A DNA stretch of 38,300 nucleotides, from the IMG/VR virus record IMGVR_UViG_3300025086_000088, positions 1 through 38,300 of that record. The stretch is one strand, 5' to 3'. This document shows, in pieces, positions 6,216-25,168 of this stretch. This stretch comes from a virus. Position 1 is the first letter of the stretch, and each line of letters starts with the position of its first letter. The position numbers were made by a program, and so were the translations under genes. The notes beneath the pieces are model-generated. The model searched no databases and had not been told where the DNA came from. It was given only the letters and a program-made list of their open reading frames with translations.

Positions 6216-6375
6216 GATCCACTTTTACCCGTACTAGAGCATACGGGATTCCTCCTTTTTCCATGTCGGCGCACACTCGCTCCCACATGGCCTTTTGCTT
6301 CGGCCTGTAGGGCCGAGTTAATGACCGAAGCCCCATGGCTTCAGCCTGTTCAGGATTGATTACTTTGTTGTTCAT
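6172..6375 (-). CDS. Conserved-looking small protein (67 aa), unknown
   Basis: It reads MNNKVINPEQAEAMGLRSLT followed by RPYRPKQKAMWERVCADMEK and ends ALVRVKVDHAYGPYDGIEVW-RG. It is basic, with a helix rich in Lys, Arg and Glu and then a probable beta hairpin. Its start lies within the end of the methyltransferase gene and its stop within the start of the primase gene, so all three are translationally linked in the early operon. I do not recognise the family. The tight overlaps and even composition support a real gene. Confidence 0.6.
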   Translation of the reverse strand: MNNKVINPEQAEAMGLRSLTRPYRPKQKAMWERVCADMEKGGIPYALVRVKVDHAYGPYDGIEVWRG

Positions 6376-7537
6376 CCATCAACTCCTTGTAAAGCGTTCT
6401 GAACGCTACTTCTGCCGTATCCGGCACCACTCCATTGCCTAATAGCCTTAACCGATCCACGCGGTTGGCAGTTGGGTCCAGCCCACTGGTAGGCCCATCA
6501 GTTGCTCCACCCAATTCGGATTCAGTTTGCCGTTTGCTTTGCCCATCAACCTTGTGATCTTCCGCCCCTTGCTCATCTGGTACGGAACATTTTTGCAGTC
6601 GGTCTGAATCGGCGTCGGCCATGTCTCCTCTTTCTTCACCTTCTCCTCCAGATACAACGGCACAGTGTTCTTGCCTTTGCTCTGTCGAAACTTCAGACAC
6701 TTCTCCATTGTCTCCTCGGATCGAGGCCGACTCATTGCTGTGGGCGTCGGCCATTGCTCCTTCACCTGACCCAGTAATCCCAGTTCGCCCTTCCGCTCGT
6801 TTCCTCTCGTCGTAAAGTTCTGCGCCTGTGGCGTCGCCCACGACTCTTGGTTCTTCCCATTCGTGCTGGGGTTCGCCTGGTCGGGCGGGCCAGTTTCGAT
6901 AACTACGGTAGTCAAAGACTTCTGCGTCCCCTTCTTTCCATTGTTGCGGTTCTGGAAGCCTAACCGTGCTTCGTGTGCTGCCGGAGTGGGCCAAGATGAA
7001 GACTCGTTTGCGTTGGTGCGTTGCGCCGACTTCAGCCGCTGAGAATACTCCTGCCGTCGCCCTATAACCCACTCGTTCCAACTCTCTAATGACATGGAGC
7101 AAAACGGGCGTTCCGGCTGGGTCTTCCCATCCGTCTCCCTTGAGTTTTGCGGAGATGATTCCTTCCACGTTTTCAAGGAAGACGATTCTTGGCTGAATAG
7201 TTCGTATTGCATTTTTTATGTATGGGAAGAGGTGTCTTGGGTCTTCGTCGCCTTCCCGCTTACCTGCGGCGGAGAAAGGTTGGCACGGGAAGCCGCCAGA
7301 GATAATCTCCAGGCCCGTTGGAAACGCTTCCAATGGCAGGGTTTTAAGGTTTGTCCAGATAGGCGCTTGATCCAGTTCACCCTCTTCCATCTTTGCGACC
7401 AAGTTCGCGACGGCGAAACACTCGATCTCCACATAAGCGACTGTTCTGCAAGTTGGGAAAACTCTTCGCAACCCAAGGTCAATTCCTCCGTATCCGGCAC
7501 AGAGAGAGATGTGATTAATTGCTTTGGAAGTATCCAC
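6350..7537 (-). CDS. DNA cytosine-5 methyltransferase (Dcm type)
   Basis: 395 residues. Motif I is AGYGGIDLGL (14-23). Motif IV is GGFPCQPFSAAGKR with catalytic C85. Motif VI is ENV (122-124) in VFLENVEGI, and motif VIII is QRKRVFI (175-181). Motif X appears near the end in VDRLRLLGNGVVP. Residues about 185-345 are unusual: polar and low in hydrophobics, with repeated short phrases (VGDATGA, MADAHSNE, MADADSDR) in place of an ordinary target-recognition domain. That stretch overlaps a second, better-structured frame (see 6448-7212). The enzyme would add a methyl group to C5 of cytosine, protecting phage DNA from restriction; no partner endonuclease is visible. It lies in the early operon between the DnaA-like gene and the 67-aa gene. 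Confidence 0.9.
   Translation of the reverse strand: MDTSKAINHISLCAGYGGIDLGLRRVFPTCRTVAYVEIECFAVANLVAKMEEGELDQAPIWTNLKTLPLEAFPTGLEIISGGFPCQPFSAAGKREGDEDPRHLFPYIKNAIRTIQPRIVFLENVEGIISAKLKGDGWEDPAGTPVLLHVIRELERVGYRATAGVFSAAEVGATHQRKRVFILAHSGSTRSTVRLPEPQQWKEGDAEVFDYRSYRNWPARPGEPQHEWEEPRVVGDATGAELYDERKRAEGRTGITGSGEGAMADAHSNESASIRGDNGEVSEVSTEQRQEHCAVVSGGEGEERGDMADADSDRLQKCSVPDEQGAEDHKVDGQSKRQTESELGGATDGPTSGLDPTANRVDRLRLLGNGVVPDTAEVAFRTLYKELMDEQQSNQS
6448..7212 (-). CDS. Overprinted protein inside the methyltransferase gene (WPTP-repeat family)
   Basis: 254 residues from ATG 7212, in a different frame of the same strand, wholly inside the cytosine methyltransferase gene. It reads MQYELFSQESSSLKTWKESS, then SWNEWVIGRRQEYSQRLKSA, then four Trp-Pro/Ala-Thr-Pro phrases (SWPTPAAHEA, SWATPQAQNF, QWPTPTAMSR, TWPTPIQTDC), and ends GKLNPNWVEQLMGLPVGWT. 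I recognise this combination as a recurring phage/metagenome protein family found beside Dcm-type enzymes; its function is unknown to me. Where this frame encodes WPTPTA, the methyltransferase frame encodes MADAHS, so both frames are constrained together. A protein helping target recognition by the methyltransferase is one possibility. Fusion by a frameshift is a further one. Confidence 0.62.
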   Translation of the reverse strand: MQYELFSQESSSLKTWKESSPQNSRETDGKTQPERPFCSMSLESWNEWVIGRRQEYSQRLKSAQRTNANESSSWPTPAAHEARLGFQNRNNGKKGTQKSLTTVVIETGPPDQANPSTNGKNQESWATPQAQNFTTRGNERKGELGLLGQVKEQWPTPTAMSRPRSEETMEKCLKFRQSKGKNTVPLYLEEKVKKEETWPTPIQTDCKNVPYQMSKGRKITRLMGKANGKLNPNWVEQLMGLPVGWTQLPTAWIG

Positions 7538-7541
7538 ATCA

Positions 7542-7982
7542 CTAACTCCTTTTAATCCGAACCCGTTCCTGTTTGATCTCAGCCTTTTGCGCCAAGACCG
7601 CAGCCAGTTGCGGGTCAGTTAGATTTTGGTGCCCCGGAATATGTCCCTCCAGAGTGATGGAAACCTTGTCTTCAGGATCCTCATCCTCCACCAGCACACC
7701 GACTAGCATCTCCCACTTCTGGCGAAACGCGGGCCAGACCTCGACGTTGTTGGTAACCGACTTAACCGCATGCAGTACCGTGCCGTGATCACGATCAAAT
7801 GCTCGGCCCACTGCGCTCAGTGAATAGCCACGGGTGCGCAGCACCGTCATGCATGCTTGCCTGGCACCAGTGACTTCCTGAGAAACGCGGCGCCGACTCA
7901 ACAGGTCGGATGACTTAACACCCCAGATTGGCGCAGCTAATTCCGCAATGGCTTTAGCCTCAAAGTTGATAGCATTACTCAT
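7542..7982 (-). CDS. DnaA domain-IV-like DNA-binding protein
   Basis: 146 residues. Residues about 10-75 resemble the C-terminal duplex-binding domain of DnaA: IWGVKSSDLLSRRRVSQEVT, GARQACMTVLRTRGYSL, then SAVGRAFDRDHGTVLHAVK, which matches the DnaA signature (RDHTTVLHA). The AAA+ ATPase domain of full DnaA is absent. The rest is a charged tail. Such a protein could bind DnaA boxes in the phage origin or compete with host DnaA for them. Its ATG overlaps the end of the nuclease gene and its stop lies 4 bp from the methyltransferase start, within the replication operon. The domain call is good; the role is inferred. Confidence 0.8.
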   Translation of the reverse strand: MSNAINFEAKAIAELAAPIWGVKSSDLLSRRRVSQEVTGARQACMTVLRTRGYSLSAVGRAFDRDHGTVLHAVKSVTNNVEVWPAFRQKWEMLVGVLVEDEDPEDKVSITLEGHIPGHQNLTDPQLAAVLAQKAEIKQERVRIKRS

Positions 7983-12895: not shown

Positions 12896-13153
12896 ATGGA
12901 TAAATTAAAACTGGTGAAACACCTTCAGAAGAAATTTCCGAAGGCTCCTCTTATCGAAGACGGCAATGAGTTTGGTTGGGGTAAGAACTCAATCTTAGTC
13001 GGCGCCGAGCATAATCCGTATGCCGACTACTGGCAGATGAACAACAACGATACCATTTTCGGTATCGACAAAAAATTCTATGAGGAGTGCGAAGCCAATG
13101 GCTGGTACCCCGAATGGAACGATCCCGGCACAATCTTACTCTACAAGTCATGA
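12896..13153 (+). CDS. Small protein (85 aa) before integrase, unknown
   Basis: MDKLKLVKHLQKKFPKAPLI, EDGNEFGWGKNSILVGAEHN, then DYWQMNNNDTIFGIDKKFYE, ending EWNDPGTILLYKS. Aromatic-rich, probably a small alpha/beta domain. It follows the previous stop by one base and its own stop overlaps the integrase ATG (ATGA), so it is co-translated with the integrase. An accessory role in integration is possible from position only. Confidence 0.6.
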   Translation: MDKLKLVKHLQKKFPKAPLIEDGNEFGWGKNSILVGAEHNPYADYWQMNNNDTIFGIDKKFYEECEANGWYPEWNDPGTILLYKS

Positions 13154-14214
13154 CCTACATCATCCGAAAAAACAACTACACTGCCATTGAATCCATTAAC
13201 GGCAAACGGGTTTGGTTTGCGACCAAAACGCCTAACAAGCGTTTGGCGGAGAAACGAGCCAAGACATACTTTCAGGCACTGCGGGAAGAAAACCTCGCCG
13301 CCGCTGAGAAGCTGATGAATCGTAATCCAAGCTCAATCACTATCGGTGACTTGCTGGATCTTTACGAGAAGCTGGCAACGGTAAAGGCCGACACCCGGAC
13401 CAAAAACATTGCCAAGCTGAAACTGATCCTGAAGGAAACCGAGACACCACTAACCTCTCAGGTTAATGCGCTAACGGGACGGATCATTTCTCGCTTTGAG
13501 CGTCAACGTCATAAGGCAGCTACTGATGTGCCGTCACTCCACACTGCCAAGCGCACGGTTGCCGCTACAGTGCGTCAGGCTCGCAGCGTGTTTGCCAAGC
13601 GCATGCTTCAACTGTACGCCGATGAGGGGTTTAACATCGATGTGTCGGACTTCACTTCGCGCAGCGTGGAACAGGGCCCAAGTATCCGTTACAAGGCCCC
13701 AAAGGATGGCCTAGCCGCAAAGACTCTTGCCGCCAGTAAAAAGCTGCGAGAGGACGATCCTGAAGCGTACAAGGCGTTTATCTGCGAATACTTTGCTGGC
13801 ATGCGCAAGAATGAGGTAGCTCATGCCAAAGTATCTTGGCTAGGCGATCACTCAATCCACATTCAGCCGGATGGAGATTTTGACACCAAAAACTCCTATG
13901 ACCGTGAGGTGTATCTTGCCCCTGATATCTGGGCAACCCTGATGGAGTTGGTCGGTGACCAGACCGATTACATCCTCAAGGGCACCAAGACCGAGCGCAC
14001 CGACAAAGTGTTTCGGCGCTTAAATGCTTGGCTGACTGATCAAGGCTGGACTCATACCAACAAACGGGGGCATGAGCTTCGGAAGGTCTACGGTTCAACC
14101 GTATCCAAGATCGCTGGCATTCAGGCCGCGCAACAATTGCTCGGACACATGGACATCAAAACCACTGACCGCTTTTACTCTGACATTCAGGCCAAGGTTG
14201 TGGTCAATGAGTAA
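13150..14214 (+). CDS. int: Tyrosine recombinase (phage integrase)
   Basis: 354 residues from ATG 13150. An earlier in-frame ATG (13087) lies inside the preceding gene and adds an unlikely N-terminus. Residues about 1-50 form an arm-binding beta domain (MTYIIRKNNYTAIESINGKR), followed by a core-binding helical domain (about 60-170). The catalytic domain has R219 (YFAGMRKNEV), K247, H308-x-x-R311 (HELRKVYGS), H333 (LLGHMD) and nucleophile Y343 (TTDRFYSD), so the full active site is present. It joins attP to attB in a host tRNA-Ile2 gene; attP lies about 120 bp downstream. It is last in the rightward transcript, which a terminator at 14407 probably ends. Confidence 0.95.
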   Translation: MTYIIRKNNYTAIESINGKRVWFATKTPNKRLAEKRAKTYFQALREENLAAAEKLMNRNPSSITIGDLLDLYEKLATVKADTRTKNIAKLKLILKETETPLTSQVNALTGRIISRFERQRHKAATDVPSLHTAKRTVAATVRQARSVFAKRMLQLYADEGFNIDVSDFTSRSVEQGPSIRYKAPKDGLAAKTLAASKKLREDDPEAYKAFICEYFAGMRKNEVAHAKVSWLGDHSIHIQPDGDFDTKNSYDREVYLAPDIWATLMELVGDQTDYILKGTKTERTDKVFRRLNAWLTDQGWTHTNKRGHELRKVYGSTVSKIAGIQAAQQLLGHMDIKTTDRFYSDIQAKVVVNE

Positions 14215-15704: not shown

Positions 15705-18700
15705 TTAGTTGCGTGTGTTAAGTAAAAACAAACTTTCCTTGGTTAGCCTTTTCGACCCAGCATCCGTTCCGTCAAAATCAGCGAACCTAACTCCGAGCTT
15801 CCCCCTCTTAATTAATTCATCCCTAAATTTTTCAAGATTGGCTTTACCTATAAAAAATTCATCTAGAAGCGTTTCTGCTGCATATTGTTTATGCACCAAA
15901 GCGGGAAACTCGTAATCCGACACAGCAATGCCAATTTCTTTCATTACATTTCGAGCTTCTTCTTCGCTTAAAATTTTATCTAGATTTACTTTCTTTTTGT
16001 GTACCCCTCCAGGATCACCAAACGCATACTCTAGTGCTTGCGGCTTTTCCATTGCAGCAAAATGAAATCCACCGTGCCGATCAGAAACTTTGCGGCCTGA
16101 TGTTGTCCCTCGGTAAACCGTAACCTCTCCACCCGCTGGCATAAACATTGCCTGACCTTGCTGCACATCAGCTTTCATCTGGGGCGTGATATCAACGTAG
16201 TGTGCGGTGGAGGATTTCATCGTTTCCTGCGGTGACCCTTCCCAATATTTGCGTAGATCAATCCTAACCTCACCGACTTCACCGCCCCACTTCTTAACGT
16301 ACTTGCCAGTGTAATTAGGAAGATCGATGTCGTAAAACTGTTTGTGACCTTCACCGCCAACAGCTAATTCAAGTCCCTCAAACTCACCTGACCCGGACTT
16401 GTCGGCGGCAATCTTCTCAGCCAATTCTCGGCCAACAGTTCTCTTCATGTCCTTGCTGGCAACCATCGTATCAGGGATTACTTTGTTCCCAGCCTTGTCC
16501 CATGCGCTAACCATGGTCCGGTCTTCACCTGGCAATCTCTGGTACTCAACTCGATCAATAAATTTGCTCAAGTTGTACCTATCGGCAGTGTCTCGGCCAG
16601 TAATCCAACCTACCCGATCAAATCCGTTGTCGGCGCCCCAACGAATCATTCGCTTCATTGCTAAGGCTCGCCACTTGTCATCTTCTACAAACCGATTGCC
16701 TTTTCGTTTAGAAACAAACGGCGCCGCCGGTACGGACTCTTCACGCCCCCCAACAACGTCGCCATTAATGTAAGGCTCGTTAAATCCAACACCCCTTCCT
16801 TTAGCCGCCCAATCGCTTTGCACTTCTTCAATAAAGAGCATGCGCTTACCGTCGGCGTCTACCCGCTCATTAAACCGAACGTGAGCAAAAACATTTTCAT
16901 CAGTCTCGAAGTGGGATTCTTTAAAAGGTCTATTGGCAGGAATTTCTTTTAGATCTGTTTTTCTTATTTTGCTCGCTGCGGCCTCGGCTTCTGCTTTGGA
17001 CTCAAACCTTCCGGATGTATAACCGTTTGGACCCTCTACTCTGGCATGGTAGGTCATTACATATTCGCCCTCACTGCCCAGCATTGAGCCAATAGATTCC
17101 ACTATTACCTTGGGTGACTTTTTTGGACCAGGCAGCATCAGCTCAAGTTCACGGTAAGATCCCTTGACGGCGCCAGGCAGAGACAAATCTGATTTATCGA
17201 ACTGCGGATCAAAGTCTTTAGAGACAAACTCTAAGTTAGCTGTTGCCTCCTCAAAGGCCATCTCCGCATCCCGCGCCTCCTGATAAGTGCCCCGGTCATC
17301 AGCGTCGTACATTTCCTGACGTGCATCCTCAACCGCTTCCTCGGCTGCGCGAAGTTCTGGTGAATCCTCTCCACCCCGGACTTTTTCCACCACCGCAATC
17401 TGGTTGGTATCAATAAAGTCCTGCACCTCTTCCTTGGTGACCTTACCCTTTTTGTCCATCAACCAACGGTCCAGATCAATCCACTTCATTTCCTGTCGAG
17501 CAGCAGGATCTTGCCGAAGGATATCATTTAGCATGGCTGCACCCGTTGCCGAGTTCCGCACCTTGGGAGATTCCAGCGCCTTGCTGGAGTTACTGTAGAA
17601 GATGTCGCCGCCTTTACCGGCGGGCATGAAGTAAGTGCCCAACTTATCGAAAACAGGCATCACTGTCTGAAGGGGTTGCGGGCCGATATTTTTTTTCAGC
17701 TTCGCCTTACCTTTGCCTTGATAGATTTTAGTGCTAGATGTTAAGTCTCGGACGTTATGAAATTCTTTCAGGAATCCAATGGGTTTACCTTCTACTGTCC
17801 ATGGGTAACTATAGTGAAAGTCCGTCTTCCTTGGTCGCTTGGTTAAATTCAGTTCCACCAGTGCCACAACATCTCCGATTTTCGCATCACGCAACTCTGG
17901 ATCCGACATGTCTCGCATGAGAGAAGAAAGATCCATTCCTGCCTCTACCAGTTCGGGTTGAATAATCTCTAATTTAGAGTTCTTCATTTTCCCGATATTG
18001 GTAAACTTATCTTTAATCATTCCCGCTGTGGCGAAGTTGATCTTCTTAGACTCCACCGCCCGACGAAGACCTCGTAGCCCTTTGATCCCAGAAATTATTT
18101 TTCTTTGCTGGGGAGTGAAATCTTTTGATTCTGATTTAGCCACCAATCCCATCAAATCCTTGACGTATTGATTCATGCGCTTCGAGCTAAAGGTGCCGCT
18201 CTCAACTCCAGCCTCTAGGTTCCGTACAAATCCATTCAGTCCGTAAGCGGAATTAAAGTGCGTGGTTGATCCTTGCGAAGTGACCCCCATGATCACGGTA
18301 TTCTTGCCGCCAGACACATCCAGACCCCGCTTTATTAATCGCTTGGCGGCGCTTTCATCAGTGAATGCCCAAATCATATTGTCCGGGTCTAGGAATTGAA
18401 AACCGCGCCCGCCTTGGGCCGGTACATCAATTGGAGCTTTGGCCCCAGTTGGACCAACCTCCAAATCCCCAACAGCAAGATTGTCTGCTGCTAGTGCGAA
18501 AATAGCCCGGTCCTTGTAGTTCTCCAACTGAACCTTTTTGGCTGGCATGAATTGAGCCAAGATCGGCTTGCTCAGATTGAACTCAGCCCCATCTTCGGCG
18601 CGTACTCGGCCCGGTGCTACCTCGACTCCTTTCCCTGCTGGCATGTAGAGGAAATCACCCTTATCACCAAACTTGGCATTCTTAACGAACACCGTGTTGC

Positions 18701-21700
18701 CAATTTGAACTACCTCATCGCCTCCAATAATTGGCCGGTGCGGCGCTGATCTATCGTAAATGTAACTATGGCGATCAGGGTTAAATCCAGCTTGTGTTGA
18801 TGCTTCGGTATTAATCCACCGTGGAAGTATTTGGCTTTTGTGTTTCTTACCCTTAATTACAATTGTTGGTGTTTTTTGCTCTCCAGAACCTATCTTCAAG
18901 GAAGCTCTTTGCATTCCTTCTGTCGGAACAAGTTCAGGATCAGTAATCCTGATAAGGTTTTCATAGGTCGTTACGTCTTTTGATTTCCCAGTAACAATTC
19001 CAACTCCGTACTTAGACATGGAATCAACATCCTGGCGCAAGGTCATTGGAGTGCCCGCAGGGATTTCATTAAGCCTACCTATGTTTTCTCTTTGCCGAGC
19101 ATTTAAGGCGTTAAACATTTCAGCCTCAGTAGGTAAGTCCTTCATCTTTGGAATTGGGACTTCCCTGATTGGGTACTCTTCCTCAATCGCTTTCTCTAGC
19201 TTCTCCCGGTCCAGCTTTTTACCCTGCCTAAACTCTTGGAGCATTTTTCTTGCGGTAGGCGAGTGCGGGCGATCAACCCCTTCCACCTTTTTAGCGCCAC
19301 CCTTGTCTGCTCTGGCGGGCATGAAGTTGCGTTTTAGGTTTAAGTAATTCACGGGGAAGGTATCACCCATGATGGTGTTAACCTCTTCCATCCGATCAAC
19401 CCGTAAACTAATCGGCACCACATGCTCTTTATTCGTGCTGATTCGGTCCGGGTTCTGCTCCATCATGCCTTGCTCACCGGCATTCATGAAATCATATATG
19501 GCATCCTTTTGCGGGGTAGCTTCATTGCGAACGCCCCGCACTTGGTTGTGCATATACTGAACAGCAGCAGACCGGAAATTGTCCGGGGATCCACCAAACA
19601 GATCGAAAAACTTCTTATACTTACTGTTGCCCTTCTGGGCACGCTTCCACCAGTTGTTTAATTTGTTTTCAAACCGGCTAATGCTAAATGTTTCTAAATT
19701 AAAGTTTCCAGCCTTGGAAATTGAAAACCCGTATGGCGAAACATGCTGGTGCTTCATACTGGCCCTCGATGTGTAGGCCGAACCCGTGGTTGCTTTGTAG
19801 TACGAAATCAGAAAGTTCATTGCCGGATCACCCTCAAGGTTTCCTACAGCATCAAAACCTTTTGCTAGGTTTTCATTGAGTTTCTGAATCTTGGCCTTCA
19901 TTGACTGAGGCACAACCTCATCGGGTAACTGCATGATGGCGGCAAGTTGCTCTTCGCTCATATACCTACCGCGATAAGAAACCTCCCCGTCCGAATGCAC
20001 CTTCCTTTGCAACCCGGTCACATATTCCCCGGCAGCGACTGAATCCAGCGCCTGAAATAAAGCCATAGAGACAGTAGTCTCACGCTCTTTACGTTGCTTA
20101 CGGGTGAGCAGCACCGGCATCCCGTTCTCGTATTGAACATTGCCCTGCTCATCGAGCTTGAACATCCCGCTATTGCGGAATTTTTCGACGGTGCCAGGGT
20201 CGTTCTTTGAGAGCAGTTCTTTCGCGCTAACAGCAAACCCGTCACTGCCTTCAGTCTCGTCGGCTAATGACAACCGTTTCAGCAATTTATCTTTCGCCAA
20301 AACATACTCAGACAATAAGGCGTTAATCTCTGGCGAGTTTGCCAGACCCTCACCGCCTTTGCCGATAATCCTACCGTCGCCGGTAAGTTTAATGCCGCGT
20401 GCAGTTGAAGGATCCTTAAACAATTTAGAAACAGGGTTTCCGCCAGCATCAAACTCCACGCCCATTGCTTTAAATGCATTTTGCATTCTTGCCAGTAAAG
20501 CTGATTGGAACTTGTAAAGTTGGTTTGTAAGTAAGCCAGCCTCCGGGGAAGTGCCTTTTGCTCGTTTATTAACCTTATTGGCGTAGGCGACCACATCTCC
20601 TTTTGACGCCTCGGCAAAGTTGCCAAACGCTTCCGATAAAATTTCTCCCGCAACAAAGCTGCGCCTAGCCTGAATAGACTTTTGGTAGTGATCAGACTGC
20701 CAACCTTCGCTCATCATGGAAACGTAGTCGCTTTCCAGCATTTTGAATTGAGCGTCATTGTATTGACCGGCAACAACCTCATTGCCCTCTTGGTCCCTTA
20801 TTCCAAAAAGGTTTGATTCCAATTGCGCCCTGAATGCCATCAATGGATCACTGGGGTCGCCAGACTCAAATTTAGGATGGAACAACTCATGCGCCAATGC
20901 GCGAAGGGGATTCACTGCCTCGGAAATGTTTACGACTACCAAAGGTTTCCCATTGTAATCATCTATGGCTACTCCTTGATAGCCAGCCTCCGCACTGCCA
21001 AGCGTCCCGCGCAATTGAGGATCAGCGGCAATTTGATCCGTTGTCATGTAGCGGATATTTAGATCGCCAGTATCGCCGCCAATCAGCATGCCGCGACCAA
21101 ATGCATCTAATTTTGCTAACTCTAAAAGTTTAGGTGGAAGAAGCTGACCTGTAAGAACTTCCCGATCTGAGCTTGGTAGTTGAGCCAAAAAGTTTGAGAC
21201 TAAATCTTGGTCAGGAATATCCAGGATAGAGTCTACCTCTTTGGTGACAATCTTCCCGTTTTCCTTTGTAGCGTAAGTAATCTTTCCGGCGCCCGTAATC
21301 TTGCCTAGCGCGTAACCCTGCGCCATACCGATAGGACCGCCCAGAACACCAACACCTAAACCCCCGGCAGCGCCTTCCCTACCAGCAATCAAATAGCCCA
21401 TGCCCGCACCAAACACTGAGCCTTTCACTGCTGCGTCTGATATCTCCCCAGCAAGGCGCAGTGTCCGGTTCATCGCAGGATTATCAATCCGCTTCAGCGC
21501 CTCAATTGCGCCCTGCGAGTAGCCTCCCTGCTTTGCCGCAATACCCAAGCTACCCATTTGCGCACCCCTTGCGGCGCCGCTGATGGTGTTGCCTATTGTT
21601 TTAGCTTTGGCGCCAACCTTGCCAATATATTTAGGCGCACCTTTTGCTGTAGCGTATGTACCAATCCCAGCAATAAGTGTATCGATAAGCGATTCATCAT

Positions 21701-22712
21701 CTTCAATCGCCTTATGGATTCCGTACCCAACCGCAGTTGCGGCAGCATACTTACCAACCTTTGTATCTGCCGCTTTTGCTATTCCTTCCCCTGTTTTGGA
21801 AACAGCTTTACCGGCAAGATCCGCAGTCCTAGTGGCGGGGCGCCGAGCAAACTGCGCGGCCCATTCTCCGGCGCTAGAAAGTTTTTCGCTTTTGGGAACT
21901 TTTTCGGCAATGTCTTTGAGCGACTTTGTGAGGCGAGCCAGCTTCTCTCCCTTAACACCCTTATCGACAAGGTTGCTTGCCTTCGCAGCTTGCCCGCCAG
22001 GTATAAGCCAGGTTGGGTCTAGTAAGATGGACCAAGAGTCGGCCCATTTCATGTTTACGTCCTCATCAAACGACTCTCCCAGTGCTTCGCCTTTAACCGG
22101 GTCATTAAATAGATCACCCAATCCACGCGCATAATTACCAAGGTAACTTTGCGGGCCTTGAACTTTCTTTGCGCCAGGAGTGCTAGGCGGGACAATGTTT
22201 CCCTCTTCATCCTTGTAGACCCCCTGAAGGTCTAAAAACTTACCCGTCAATGAGAGGTAGGCGTTGTATGAGGCTTTATTTGCCTCCTCATCATCCCTCC
22301 ATAATTTTGCGGTAAACCTTCCAGCGCCTTTACCAAGGTCAATAATACCATCTAAAGCACGCAACCCCGCCTCAGTCATGTTTTGAGGTAAACGCTTGTA
22401 TCCTTGCCCTTCAAAAAAACCAGACCCTAAATGCTTTAACGCCTCACCAGCGAGTTTCATGTAGGCAACACTAGCCTCTTGATTTTCCTTCCAACCCTCG
22501 TAGGTAAAGAATTGGCGCCCGTACTCGTCTTCCATGAAAGTATCATGCCCGGAGCGAGTAACTAGCCTGTGATTGTTTTTATTTCGCTTTTGCCGCTCCT
22601 CATAAAGACGGTCAAGTTCATCTGCTAATGTTAAGCCACCAGTGTTTTGCTGTTTGGGTGCCTCACCAAAATAAAAACTTTTGATCCAATCTTCTCGATT
22701 TTTGTCTGCCAT
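15705..22712 (-). CDS. Giant multidomain polyvalent/internal virion protein (2335 aa)
   Basis: One frame of 2335 residues. The first 600 residues are helical, with Gly/Ala-rich hydrophobic stretches (about 350-470). Next is a zincin-type metalloprotease motif RALAHELFHPKF, with HExxH near 607. Around residue 1090-1130, EHVVPISL ... NYLNLKRNFMPARADKGG resembles an HNH nuclease. Residues about 1700-2190 match a large phage polyvalent domain (WIDLDRWLMD, HVRFNERVDADGK, FIEEVQSDWAAKGR, KRMIRWGADNGFDR, GGEGHKQFYDIDLPNYTGKY, ITPQMKADVQQGQ). The last 145 residues resemble an ADP-ribosyltransferase-like fold (VYRGTTSGRK ... GGFHFAAMEKPQALEYAFG). FMPA motifs occur near 1130, 1389, 1696 and 2190, with YMPA near 1356. 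It is probably packaged and ejected with the DNA, counteracting host defence, and possibly cut into parts. Its place after the tail/internal virion genes fits. Confidence 0.75.
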   Translation of the reverse strand: MADKNREDWIKSFYFGEAPKQQNTGGLTLADELDRLYEERQKRNKNNHRLVTRSGHDTFMEDEYGRQFFTYEGWKENQEASVAYMKLAGEALKHLGSGFFEGQGYKRLPQNMTEAGLRALDGIIDLGKGAGRFTAKLWRDDEEANKASYNAYLSLTGKFLDLQGVYKDEEGNIVPPSTPGAKKVQGPQSYLGNYARGLGDLFNDPVKGEALGESFDEDVNMKWADSWSILLDPTWLIPGGQAAKASNLVDKGVKGEKLARLTKSLKDIAEKVPKSEKLSSAGEWAAQFARRPATRTADLAGKAVSKTGEGIAKAADTKVGKYAAATAVGYGIHKAIEDDESLIDTLIAGIGTYATAKGAPKYIGKVGAKAKTIGNTISGAARGAQMGSLGIAAKQGGYSQGAIEALKRIDNPAMNRTLRLAGEISDAAVKGSVFGAGMGYLIAGREGAAGGLGVGVLGGPIGMAQGYALGKITGAGKITYATKENGKIVTKEVDSILDIPDQDLVSNFLAQLPSSDREVLTGQLLPPKLLELAKLDAFGRGMLIGGDTGDLNIRYMTTDQIAADPQLRGTLGSAEAGYQGVAIDDYNGKPLVVVNISEAVNPLRALAHELFHPKFESGDPSDPLMAFRAQLESNLFGIRDQEGNEVVAGQYNDAQFKMLESDYVSMMSEGWQSDHYQKSIQARRSFVAGEILSEAFGNFAEASKGDVVAYANKVNKRAKGTSPEAGLLTNQLYKFQSALLARMQNAFKAMGVEFDAGGNPVSKLFKDPSTARGIKLTGDGRIIGKGGEGLANSPEINALLSEYVLAKDKLLKRLSLADETEGSDGFAVSAKELLSKNDPGTVEKFRNSGMFKLDEQGNVQYENGMPVLLTRKQRKERETTVSMALFQALDSVAAGEYVTGLQRKVHSDGEVSYRGRYMSEEQLAAIMQLPDEVVPQSMKAKIQKLNENLAKGFDAVGNLEGDPAMNFLISYYKATTGSAYTSRASMKHQHVSPYGFSISKAGNFNLETFSISRFENKLNNWWKRAQKGNSKYKKFFDLFGGSPDNFRSAAVQYMHNQVRGVRNEATPQKDAIYDFMNAGEQGMMEQNPDRISTNKEHVVPISLRVDRMEEVNTIMGDTFPVNYLNLKRNFMPARADKGGAKKVEGVDRPHSPTARKMLQEFRQGKKLDREKLEKAIEEEYPIREVPIPKMKDLPTEAEMFNALNARQRENIGRLNEIPAGTPMTLRQDVDSMSKYGVGIVTGKSKDVTTYENLIRITDPELVPTEGMQRASLKIGSGEQKTPTIVIKGKKHKSQILPRWINTEASTQAGFNPDRHSYIYDRSAPHRPIIGGDEVVQIGNTVFVKNAKFGDKGDFLYMPAGKGVEVAPGRVRAEDGAEFNLSKPILAQFMPAKKVQLENYKDRAIFALAADNLAVGDLEVGPTGAKAPIDVPAQGGRGFQFLDPDNMIWAFTDESAAKRLIKRGLDVSGGKNTVIMGVTSQGSTTHFNSAYGLNGFVRNLEAGVESGTFSSKRMNQYVKDLMGLVAKSESKDFTPQQRKIISGIKGLRGLRRAVESKKINFATAGMIKDKFTNIGKMKNSKLEIIQPELVEAGMDLSSLMRDMSDPELRDAKIGDVVALVELNLTKRPRKTDFHYSYPWTVEGKPIGFLKEFHNVRDLTSSTKIYQGKGKAKLKKNIGPQPLQTVMPVFDKLGTYFMPAGKGGDIFYSNSSKALESPKVRNSATGAAMLNDILRQDPAARQEMKWIDLDRWLMDKKGKVTKEEVQDFIDTNQIAVVEKVRGGEDSPELRAAEEAVEDARQEMYDADDRGTYQEARDAEMAFEEATANLEFVSKDFDPQFDKSDLSLPGAVKGSYRELELMLPGPKKSPKVIVESIGSMLGSEGEYVMTYHARVEGPNGYTSGRFESKAEAEAAASKIRKTDLKEIPANRPFKESHFETDENVFAHVRFNERVDADGKRMLFIEEVQSDWAAKGRGVGFNEPYINGDVVGGREESVPAAPFVSKRKGNRFVEDDKWRALAMKRMIRWGADNGFDRVGWITGRDTADRYNLSKFIDRVEYQRLPGEDRTMVSAWDKAGNKVIPDTMVASKDMKRTVGRELAEKIAADKSGSGEFEGLELAVGGEGHKQFYDIDLPNYTGKYVKKWGGEVGEVRIDLRKYWEGSPQETMKSSTAHYVDITPQMKADVQQGQAMFMPAGGEVTVYRGTTSGRKVSDRHGGFHFAAMEKPQALEYAFGDPGGVHKKKVNLDKILSEEEARNVMKEIGIAVSDYEFPALVHKQYAAETLLDEFFIGKANLEKFRDELIKRGKLGVRFADFDGTDAGSKRLTKESLFLLNTRN

Positions 22713-25168
22713 TATTCGCCTTTAAGTTGCTGATTCAAACGTGCTTTGTTTGGCTTAAAATCTCCGGACTCAATCCGCTTACTCAATCCGCCCCATGACA
22801 TAAACCGTGTAGGCCCGTTGGGGATCCTGATGAACACGCCCCGTGAATTGGTTCGGACAATCTCGCCGGTAGTGCCTCCAATCTTAACCCGGTGCCGGAC
22901 GAATGAGTAAGGATCTCCCCCACCACCGTTATCAGCTAATTTTTGGAACTCCTGTATGGCGCGATATTCCTTAACCTGACCGTCTACCATTGCCTGACGC
23001 TCTTCCTCGCTTTCCCATGGTGTAATGTCTTCAGCTTCTTCCATCTCACCCTCAACACCCTGATCAGCGCCGGGGATTGGCCCCTTCGGTCCTTCGGCGG
23101 GTTCGTCTGAGGCGCCACTTTGTTTGCGGTATTGCGACATGCGTTGCTGCCGGCGTTCTTGCAAGGTTGGATCATACGGAGATTCTTTCTCCTGCTCCGT
23201 CTCCCCCTCAACGCCTTGATCGGCACCGGGAACAGGTTCCTTCGGGCCTTCAGCAGGTTCGTTGGGGTTGAACTCCATATTTGGTTTAGGCGCTGGCTGA
23301 CCTTCCGGTGTGCCTGTTGGCGCCATTTGATTAGGAGTTGGGTCGGGTTGATCCTGCGCCGGTTGGGTTGGCGCTGGGTTGTTAGGCATAAACATTGAGT
23401 GAACCACTGCGCTGCCATCCGGGTAAGTTCCCTTATGCGCACCCATATCAATCATTGTGTTAGCAAAATCACTTACCTCTCTTCTGGTAAACTTGTATTG
23501 CCTCATGCCGTTTTCGCCAGGCAACTTATAGTTAACGGTGCCAGAGGTCTTACCCATCATTACCGCATTAGCCAAAATACTGTTTTCAGCATCCTGAGTG
23601 CTTCGGTAACTTGTTTTAAGTTCCGGAATCCTCGGCATAACCATTCCACCTTGCTGGGCGGGGTTGGCTGCGTTGGTTGGGCTACTGGATTCCCTGTAGA
23701 TCGGTTCACCTGTTATATCAGAGTAAAGTCTGGTGTACCCTGAAACATTTTGCCTAGCACTTATTGAGTCTTCCAATTTCCTAACAATTACGTCATCAAC
23801 CAAGTTTTTGGTAATTTCATAAAGTTTTTCGTTAACTTCTCTTGGGTTTTCAATTGAAACAAATGCCGCCTTGTAGTTCTTAATGTCGTTATCAGTAAGA
23901 ACACCAACCTCCCCGTAAATACCACGGGCAAGGTTGGGGATGATGGCATTAAGTAGTCCATCCATTTCTTGAATTGCCATACCTTCATCAGTTTCAAACA
24001 GTTTCTTAACGCTCGCAAATTTTGATTTTAATTTACCCGAATCAACGCTTTTCCATGCAGATTCAACTCCTTTAATCTGATCCCTAACGGTAATTGCTTT
24101 TTCAAACCCGCGCCGTTGATCAACTCCCATACCCTCCCCAAATACTCGACTTAATTGGAGCTTCTGAGTCATGGGCGTATTTTGGTCGCTTATCTGGTTG
24201 TAAACCTCAGCACGCCTTTGGTTCACCTTTGCCACTAAAGCATTTTGCCCTGGCATAGTTGAAGTAGTGACAGCCATCCCGCTCATTGCTAGGTCATTAA
24301 CAAAACTTTCTTCTATAGGCTGACCCGCAGTGATGTTTTTGGCTTTCTCAAGCAGAAGATCATTCCTAAGTTTTATGTCTTCCTTCGTCTGGAAATCGTC
24401 AAGATCAGCCTGTCTTTCCGCTGCCGCCGTTCTTTTGGCCCTTTCCTCTAGTTGGGTGGATATTACGCCAGTGGCGCCGTATACATCCTCACGATCAACC
24501 GTCCCGCTACCGTCAACATCAAGTTCTGCCGGAACAGGTAAGCCAGCCTCGACGTACATTCCTTTAATTTCCTCACCAGTAACGATTGCTGTGGCATCGG
24601 CTATGGTGGATGCGTAGCCTTCAGGATCATTCGCCTCGACTAAAGTGGTTGGCTTAAACGAAGGATTTATTTTCTGGGCCTGAAGCACTAGCGACGCATT
24701 GTCTTCGGCCAATTTCTTTTTGTTGTGCAAACCAATAAGGGCAAGTTGCCTTTCTTGATTTCGGTTTTCTTCAGACGCATGGAAAACAGGTTTTTCAAAA
24801 AGCGTATCTCGCCAAAGCTTGTAATTATCGTATGTATCCCCGTGCGCCTGTATGTCTGAAAGGTGTTTTTCTTCCGCAAACCTAAACGCACTAAGCCTTT
24901 GCTCATCAGTCTTTAGATCAGGGGAATTAATTATGTCTTTAAGGGCCATGAAGCTAACGCCAGCACTGTCCCTTAATCCCCTCTGCCGTGCCCGCTCTTT
25001 TGCTCTCTCCTGCGCCTCACGCAGTTGAGAGTCAATAAGCTGATTGCGCCTTTCCTGCGCATCCTGCTGCAACTTCATCTGTTGCGTCCGTTGCGACCTT
25101 TCAAAACCCTTGTTGTAAAGGTCGGTACCAACCTCAAACCCCTGTAAGAATGAACTTTTTCGTGCCAT
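22712..25168 (-). CDS. Internal virion protein (818 aa) with Pro/Glu-rich tail
   Basis: 818 residues. The first 120 are a charged coiled coil (QRTQQMKLQQDAQERRNQLI, SQLREAQERAKERARQRGLR). Residues about 212-225 (DVDGSGTVDREDV) match an EF-hand/dockerin calcium loop. The centre is helical. After MFMPNN the tail is rich in Pro, Asn, Glu and Gln, with two copies of a 52-residue-spaced repeat (EPAEGPKxPxPGADQGVEGE). A Trp/basic end (TRFMSWGGLSKRIESGDFKP) closes it. A gene of this size beside the giant protein and the nozzle gene is typical of ejected cores of podoviruses (like T7 gp15/gp16). The role is inferred from position; I see no enzymatic motif. It ends at the last base of the giant gene's start. 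Confidence 0.65.
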   Translation of the reverse strand: MARKSSFLQGFEVGTDLYNKGFERSQRTQQMKLQQDAQERRNQLIDSQLREAQERAKERARQRGLRDSAGVSFMALKDIINSPDLKTDEQRLSAFRFAEEKHLSDIQAHGDTYDNYKLWRDTLFEKPVFHASEENRNQERQLALIGLHNKKKLAEDNASLVLQAQKINPSFKPTTLVEANDPEGYASTIADATAIVTGEEIKGMYVEAGLPVPAELDVDGSGTVDREDVYGATGVISTQLEERAKRTAAAERQADLDDFQTKEDIKLRNDLLLEKAKNITAGQPIEESFVNDLAMSGMAVTTSTMPGQNALVAKVNQRRAEVYNQISDQNTPMTQKLQLSRVFGEGMGVDQRRGFEKAITVRDQIKGVESAWKSVDSGKLKSKFASVKKLFETDEGMAIQEMDGLLNAIIPNLARGIYGEVGVLTDNDIKNYKAAFVSIENPREVNEKLYEITKNLVDDVIVRKLEDSISARQNVSGYTRLYSDITGEPIYRESSSPTNAANPAQQGGMVMPRIPELKTSYRSTQDAENSILANAVMMGKTSGTVNYKLPGENGMRQYKFTRREVSDFANTMIDMGAHKGTYPDGSAVVHSMFMPNNPAPTQPAQDQPDPTPNQMAPTGTPEGQPAPKPNMEFNPNEPAEGPKEPVPGADQGVEGETEQEKESPYDPTLQERRQQRMSQYRKQSGASDEPAEGPKGPIPGADQGVEGEMEEAEDITPWESEEERQAMVDGQVKEYRAIQEFQKLADNGGGGDPYSFVRHRVKIGGTTGEIVRTNSRGVFIRIPNGPTRFMSWGGLSKRIESGDFKPNKARLNQQLKGE
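23061..23271 (-). repeat. Tandem repeat in the tail of the 818-aa protein
   Basis: Two copies, 156 bp apart, encode EPAEGPK(E/G)P(V/I)PGADQGVEGE. The DNA copies diverge in third positions, so selection on the protein, not recent duplication, maintains them. They flank a basic segment (TLQERRQQRMSQYRKQSGAS), suggesting a flexible stalk. Confidence 0.7.

Follow-up and report, generated by a model that had tools for sequence, protein, structure and literature searches.

A phage C5-cytosine methyltransferase with its two subunits probably encoded in overlapping reading frames

Can two reading frames of the same phage DNA encode two parts of one C5-cytosine methyltransferase? The question is raised by a viral sequence of 38,300 nucleotides (the window; IMG/VR record IMGVR_UViG_3300025086_000088, positions 1 to 38,300), for which the initial annotation reported that two minus-strand frames both resemble protein over positions 6448-7212. 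This was borne out. Frame 0 holds an ORF of 395 residues, here called alpha, and the +1 frame holds one of 254 residues, here called beta. We consider it very probable that they are the subunits of a two-polypeptide C5-cytosine methyltransferase, in which beta would bring the recognition region and motif IX. The sequence architecture, its conservation, the frame-by-frame constraint and the structural model of alpha were established directly. All features of the locus described below lie on the minus strand. Elsewhere in the window, an integrase match (13087-14214, plus strand, phrog_1, E=3e-20) and matches to a terminase, a major head protein and a tail fibre suggest that the source is a temperate tailed phage. 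An 818-residue ORF (22712-25168, minus strand), which adjoins a 2335-residue ORF (15705-22712), has no PHROG match at E 1e-4.

Alpha (6350..7537) begins with GTG and is the catalytic polypeptide of a C5-cytosine methyltransferase. In a Pfam search, PF00145 (DNA_methylase) covers only residues 8-210 (E=2.4e-34), and alpha also matches phrog_363 (E=3e-53). Motifs I, IV (PCQ), VI (ENV) and VIII (QRxR) of the PF00145 family are present in order. Motif IV, with the catalytic cysteine, lies at 7280..7288, and its P and C are invariant in alignment A2; motif VIII, QRKR, lies at 7004..7015. Motifs I-VIII are followed by a linker with ADA phrases, by an island from PARPG to WEEPR (PARPGEPQHEWEEPR, 6845..6889) and by motif X (NRVDRLRLLGNGVVPDTAEVAF, 6401..6466). 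The AlphaFold2 model of alpha is mostly confident for residues 1-189, disordered in the linker at 251-361 (pLDDT ~38) and confident again at 365-394 (pLDDT ~95), where the motif X helix is packed on the catalytic domain. Residues 1-393 of the model span residues 5-327 of M.HhaI in a structural alignment, with 208 of 327 residues aligned (Z 20.7, rmsd 3.4). The model fits a catalytic domain plus motif X without the small domain. In PF00145 enzymes a single polypeptide carries the recognition domain together with motif IX, and at this locus a motif IX-like sequence is found in the +1 frame only.

Beta (6448..7212) has the four WPTP/WATP segments that the initial annotation described, at residues 74-77, 125-128, 154-157 and 198-201, and the sequence quoted there, GKLNPNWVEQLMGLPVGWT, at residues 228-246. 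The WPTP region (6529..6993) varies among relatives, is constrained in the +1 frame and is a candidate target-recognition domain. It is followed by the near-invariant motif IX-like sequence KLNPNWVEQLMGLPVGWT (6475..6528), whose relative position matches that of PRLAAAFPEWMMGWPAGWVT in gp72 of Mycobacterium phage Tweety, a single-chain enzyme. The proposal that the second protein holds the part missing from alpha is supported by the layout, in that the conserved beta carries both the variable region and motif IX. Beta residues 115-248 match phrog_1008, 'DNA methyltransferase' (E=1.6e-16), and the segment that follows in this profile is matched by the C terminus of alpha. This suggests that the two parts are adjacent in one family and are placed here in two frames. 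Beta has no significant match in Pfam, NCBIfam or PDB sequences. The AlphaFold2 model of beta alone is poor (mean pLDDT 60, pTM 0.30); a helix spanning residues 42-65 and the surroundings of motif IX are confident. The ADA phrases of alpha and the WPTP segments of beta are coupled through shared codons, and MADAHS in alpha does lie opposite WPTPTA in beta, as had been noted. The ADA phrases are largely a shadow of the WPTP codons.

The openness of both frames exceeds chance. In the window, an open alpha frame survived synonymous shuffling of beta in 0.02% of trials (0.0002), and an open beta survived synonymous shuffling of alpha in 0.34% (0.0034). Among dereplicated loci with motif IX in the +1 frame, the alpha frame is open between motifs VIII and IX in 74 of 78, against about one expected under synonymous-codon shuffling of beta; these loci are related, so that the expected counts do not come from independent trials. 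The stops in this segment number 42 against 480-530 expected, and all fall in four loci (L033, L038, L074 and L125). The +1 frame has 2 stops before PCQ, where 92-113 are expected, and 7 between PCQ and motif VIII, where 61-65 are expected. The control was the third frame, with 210, 223 and 802 stops.

Constraint at the codon level, which the initial annotation had proposed to measure in homologues of both frames, was estimated from 29 disjoint sequence pairs. Ungapped in-register blocks were used because pairwise alignments had too many gaps in the variable region. The third codon position of alpha has the highest rate of change (0.18-0.26) from the gene start up to motif VIII and again past motif IX. 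In the interval between these two motifs, the highest rate is at the alpha first position, which is the wobble position of beta (0.223 versus 0.076 and 0.085). The beta dNN/dNS is 0.19 in this interval and 0.36-0.61 elsewhere, whereas the alpha dNN/dSN is 0.67 there and 0.11-0.33 elsewhere. The baseline of these ratios is about 0.5-0.6, not 1, in regions where strong constraint on the other frame is not expected, so the alpha value of 0.67 indicates little or no constraint. Finer bins revealed a frame-0 island at PARPGEPQHEWEEPR within the otherwise +1-constrained WPTP region and an abrupt switch back to frame 0 just past motif IX, which continues through motif X. Two upstream stretches, one some 50-20 codons ahead of PCQ and the other some 60-80 codons past it, change less at the alpha third position, and this is consistent with some double constraint. 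Constraint confined to a single frame was absent in its strong form; it alternates along the gene, mostly one frame at a time.

The +1 frame extends far beyond beta, a feature that the initial annotation did not mention. The start region reads AAAAGGAG-TTAGTG-ATGTGG. In ATGTG (7535..7539) two start codons overlap: the ATG belongs to the +1 frame and the GTG to alpha. The Shine-Dalgarno-like AAAAGGAG (7546..7553) is common to both starts and would serve both. An upstream gene at 7542-7982, which encodes a DnaA C-terminal helix-turn-helix (PF08299, E=8e-13), ends inside this region. From the ATG, a +1-frame ORF of 107 codons, beta-N (7216..7539), runs to TAA-AAA-ATG (7210..7218; junction TAAAAAATG), in which the beta ATG follows 3 bases after the stop. 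The same *KMQYELFS junction occurs in L004, L005, L006, L012 and L089, and beta opens at an equal offset in L010, L092 and L094. In most relatives beta-N runs on into beta, so that the +1 ORF is uninterrupted from the paired start to motif IX; the stop separates the two in the clade of the window. Beta-N has no match in family searches; together with the +1 frame of relatives it shows a conserved MWILPK..L start and a W-rich segment, likewise without family match. No clear ribosome-binding site precedes the beta ATG at 7212, and in this clade beta is likely restarted by termination and reinitiation. After dereplication, 85 loci had a complete 5' end. In 77 of them an ATG of the +1 frame lies no more than about 15 nt from the alpha start, and in only 6 does the third frame have such an ATG. 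ATGTG is used by 63, and other loci have paired starts that are spaced differently.

These starts bear on how beta would be made, for which the initial annotation had offered separate translation or frameshifting. Two ribosomal frameshifts, one into the +1 frame after motif VIII and a second that returns to frame 0 ahead of motif X, would yield one polypeptide, a conventional single-chain enzyme. Constraint changes frame at exactly those points, and single-chain relatives such as Tweety gp72 exist. Nevertheless we regard this explanation as improbable. It requires two opposite shifts, and it leaves unexplained the openness of the +1 frame from the start of the gene, the ATG paired with the alpha start and the open alpha frame across the linker. 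In a programmed frameshift the second frame is needed only past the shift site, whereas here it is open upstream and has a paired start of its own. Separate translation of beta is the better supported of the two routes, because the +1 frame is open far upstream of the point that a shift would require and contains start codons of its own.

The arrangement is not restricted to the window. Viral contigs were scanned once with beta and once with alpha as query, giving about 135 locus entries, some contigs being caught by both. Both ORFs could be placed in 130 entries, and every one of these, including loci fetched through alpha alone, has beta in the +1 frame relative to alpha. The recurrence of this relation in 130 locus entries rules out sequencing error as the source of the two frames. 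In the relatives motifs I-VIII are in frame 0, motif IX is in the +1 frame (consensus LNPxWVExLMGLPxGW, with variant sequences in a few relatives) and motif X is in frame 0. The +1 arrangement was found in nine phage records (Shelly, C75C1, Lc-Nu, R23.9, ABMM1, Haboob, SEN4, BcepC6B and BS-TP4), and the cultured phages that have it span seven host genera. Among the phage regions opened, beta is annotated in Shelly only, as 'g55 internal gene'; hit lists suggest that it is annotated in several other Paenibacillus phages also. A genome scan gave seven matches, two of which (L139 and L145) have the +1 arrangement, L145 being from the bacterium Kroppenstedtia guangzhouensis. Among plasmids, the search yielded only two matches, both weak.

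Some relatives depart from the common layout. L033 and L038 have many alpha-frame stops right after motif VIII and an intact beta; their frame 0 is open again ahead of the PARPG island and through motif X. These stops indicate that the ADA linker is dispensable in some phages. In L125, alpha stops just after EEPRTT, past the PARPG island, and motif X is in the beta frame. The opposite case, a WPTP frame broken by stops with the alpha frame kept, which had been named as evidence against a second protein, occurs in none of the loci examined. In L132 (2865-4165) a stop interrupts the alpha frame at motif IV (GGFP*SCQ), possibly through sequencing error or decay; both frames are otherwise open.

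Comparison with other phage enzymes suggests where beta came from. Paenibacillus phage Shelly gp55/gp56 is similar to the locus in the window, with a nested +1 beta, WGTP/WATP/WPTP segments and LNPEWVECLMGFPIGWT, but it lacks the beta-N extension with overlapping starts, and its beta begins about 180 nt into alpha. Tweety gp72 has motifs I-VIII, a WPTP-like LLPTP, a IX-like motif and motif X, but all in a single chain and a single frame, and it matches both phrog_363, as alpha does, and phrog_1008. When beta and gp72 were compared as profiles, the match was weak (probability 17%, E=0.0015, 30 columns) and fell on motif IX. A second methyltransferase gene near gp72, gp69 (L137, 1489-2274), has motifs I-VIII and LLPTP without motif X. 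Because gp72 combines motifs IX and X, LLPTP and both PHROG matches in one chain, beta is best seen as a relocated domain of a single-chain enzyme, placed in another frame, and probably not as a wholly new protein. The description of the second gene as overprinted does not hold in the sense of a novel protein: beta matches part of single-chain methyltransferases, which points to an enzyme divided between two frames.

The same evidence bears on the role of beta. Both chains could be made with beta acting as a regulator or as a separate protein, for example in anti-restriction, instead of as the recognition subunit of alpha, and beta has neither a solved relative by sequence nor a confident fold. 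We think this very unlikely, since the motif IX-like sequence absent from alpha sits in beta, the profile matched by beta includes motif X, and beta is fused to motif X in L125. That alpha alone is functional, with the WPTP frame open through codon bias or as a relic, is hardly credible: kinship among the loci does inflate the openness counts and shared codons do tie the ADA phrases to WPTP, but constraint between motifs VIII and IX tracks the WPTP frame and not that of alpha, L033 and L038 keep WPTP despite their alpha-frame stops, and alpha has neither motif IX nor a folded small domain.

A two-polypeptide methyltransferase, the reading we prefer, has precedents. The small subunit of M.EcoHK31I is encoded within the large-subunit gene in another frame. 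M.EcoHK31I and M.AquI are both two-polypeptide C5 methyltransferases, and in M.EcoHK31I the recognition domain is predicted on the large subunit, together with motifs I-VIII and X, and motif IX alone is on the small subunit (PMC3404938). The locus shares with M.EcoHK31I (YGGCCR) a large chain that carries motifs I-VIII and X and a small chain that carries motif IX. It differs in the recognition domain, for at this locus, unlike in M.EcoHK31I, beta holds most of the constrained variable region between motifs VIII and IX, the PARPG island excepted. The relatives also show paired overlapping starts and a nearly full-length overlap that reaches the start codon, which may be a further difference. 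M.AquI (CYCGRG) is likewise one C5 enzyme that occurs naturally as two polypeptides, but its motif X is on the small subunit with motif IX, whereas in the window motif X is on alpha, in frame 0; L125 has the M.AquI-like division. No report of phage cytosine methyltransferases with overlapping or nested genes emerged from a literature search, and the passages found of a frame-transition survey (PMC3711429) do not mention the methyltransferase family of this locus.

From these data we infer that both chains are translated and assemble into an enzyme that methylates DNA. Alpha would be the catalytic domain, with AdoMet binding, the catalytic cysteine and a disordered linker that leads out to motif X. 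Beta would be the small domain, with motif IX and the variable WPTP region, which its position, variability and constraint, together with motif IX, mark as the probable site of target recognition. Alpha and the +1 frame probably start at the overlapping ATGTG from a single ribosome-binding site; in the clade of the window the +1 frame would halt after 107 codons and beta would restart 3 nt later, probably by reinitiation. Methylation would probably shield the phage DNA from host restriction.

It seems evenly balanced whether the locus represents a widespread, mostly unannotated class of phage C5 methyltransferase that arose from a divided single-chain enzyme, with both subunits encoded in two frames along almost the whole gene, an ATGTG co-start and alternating selection. 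As an example of long double coding it is unusually clear, because each segment shows which frame is constrained, and the natural variants L033, L038 and L125 look like alternative splits. Repeated ADA- or ANT-type phrases past motif VIII suggest a WPTP protein in the +1 frame and may serve as a clue for annotation. Many phage cytosine methyltransferases are probably annotated by their catalytic half alone. If so, their target specificity would be sought and cloned in the wrong frame, and this could explain inactive recombinant enzymes.
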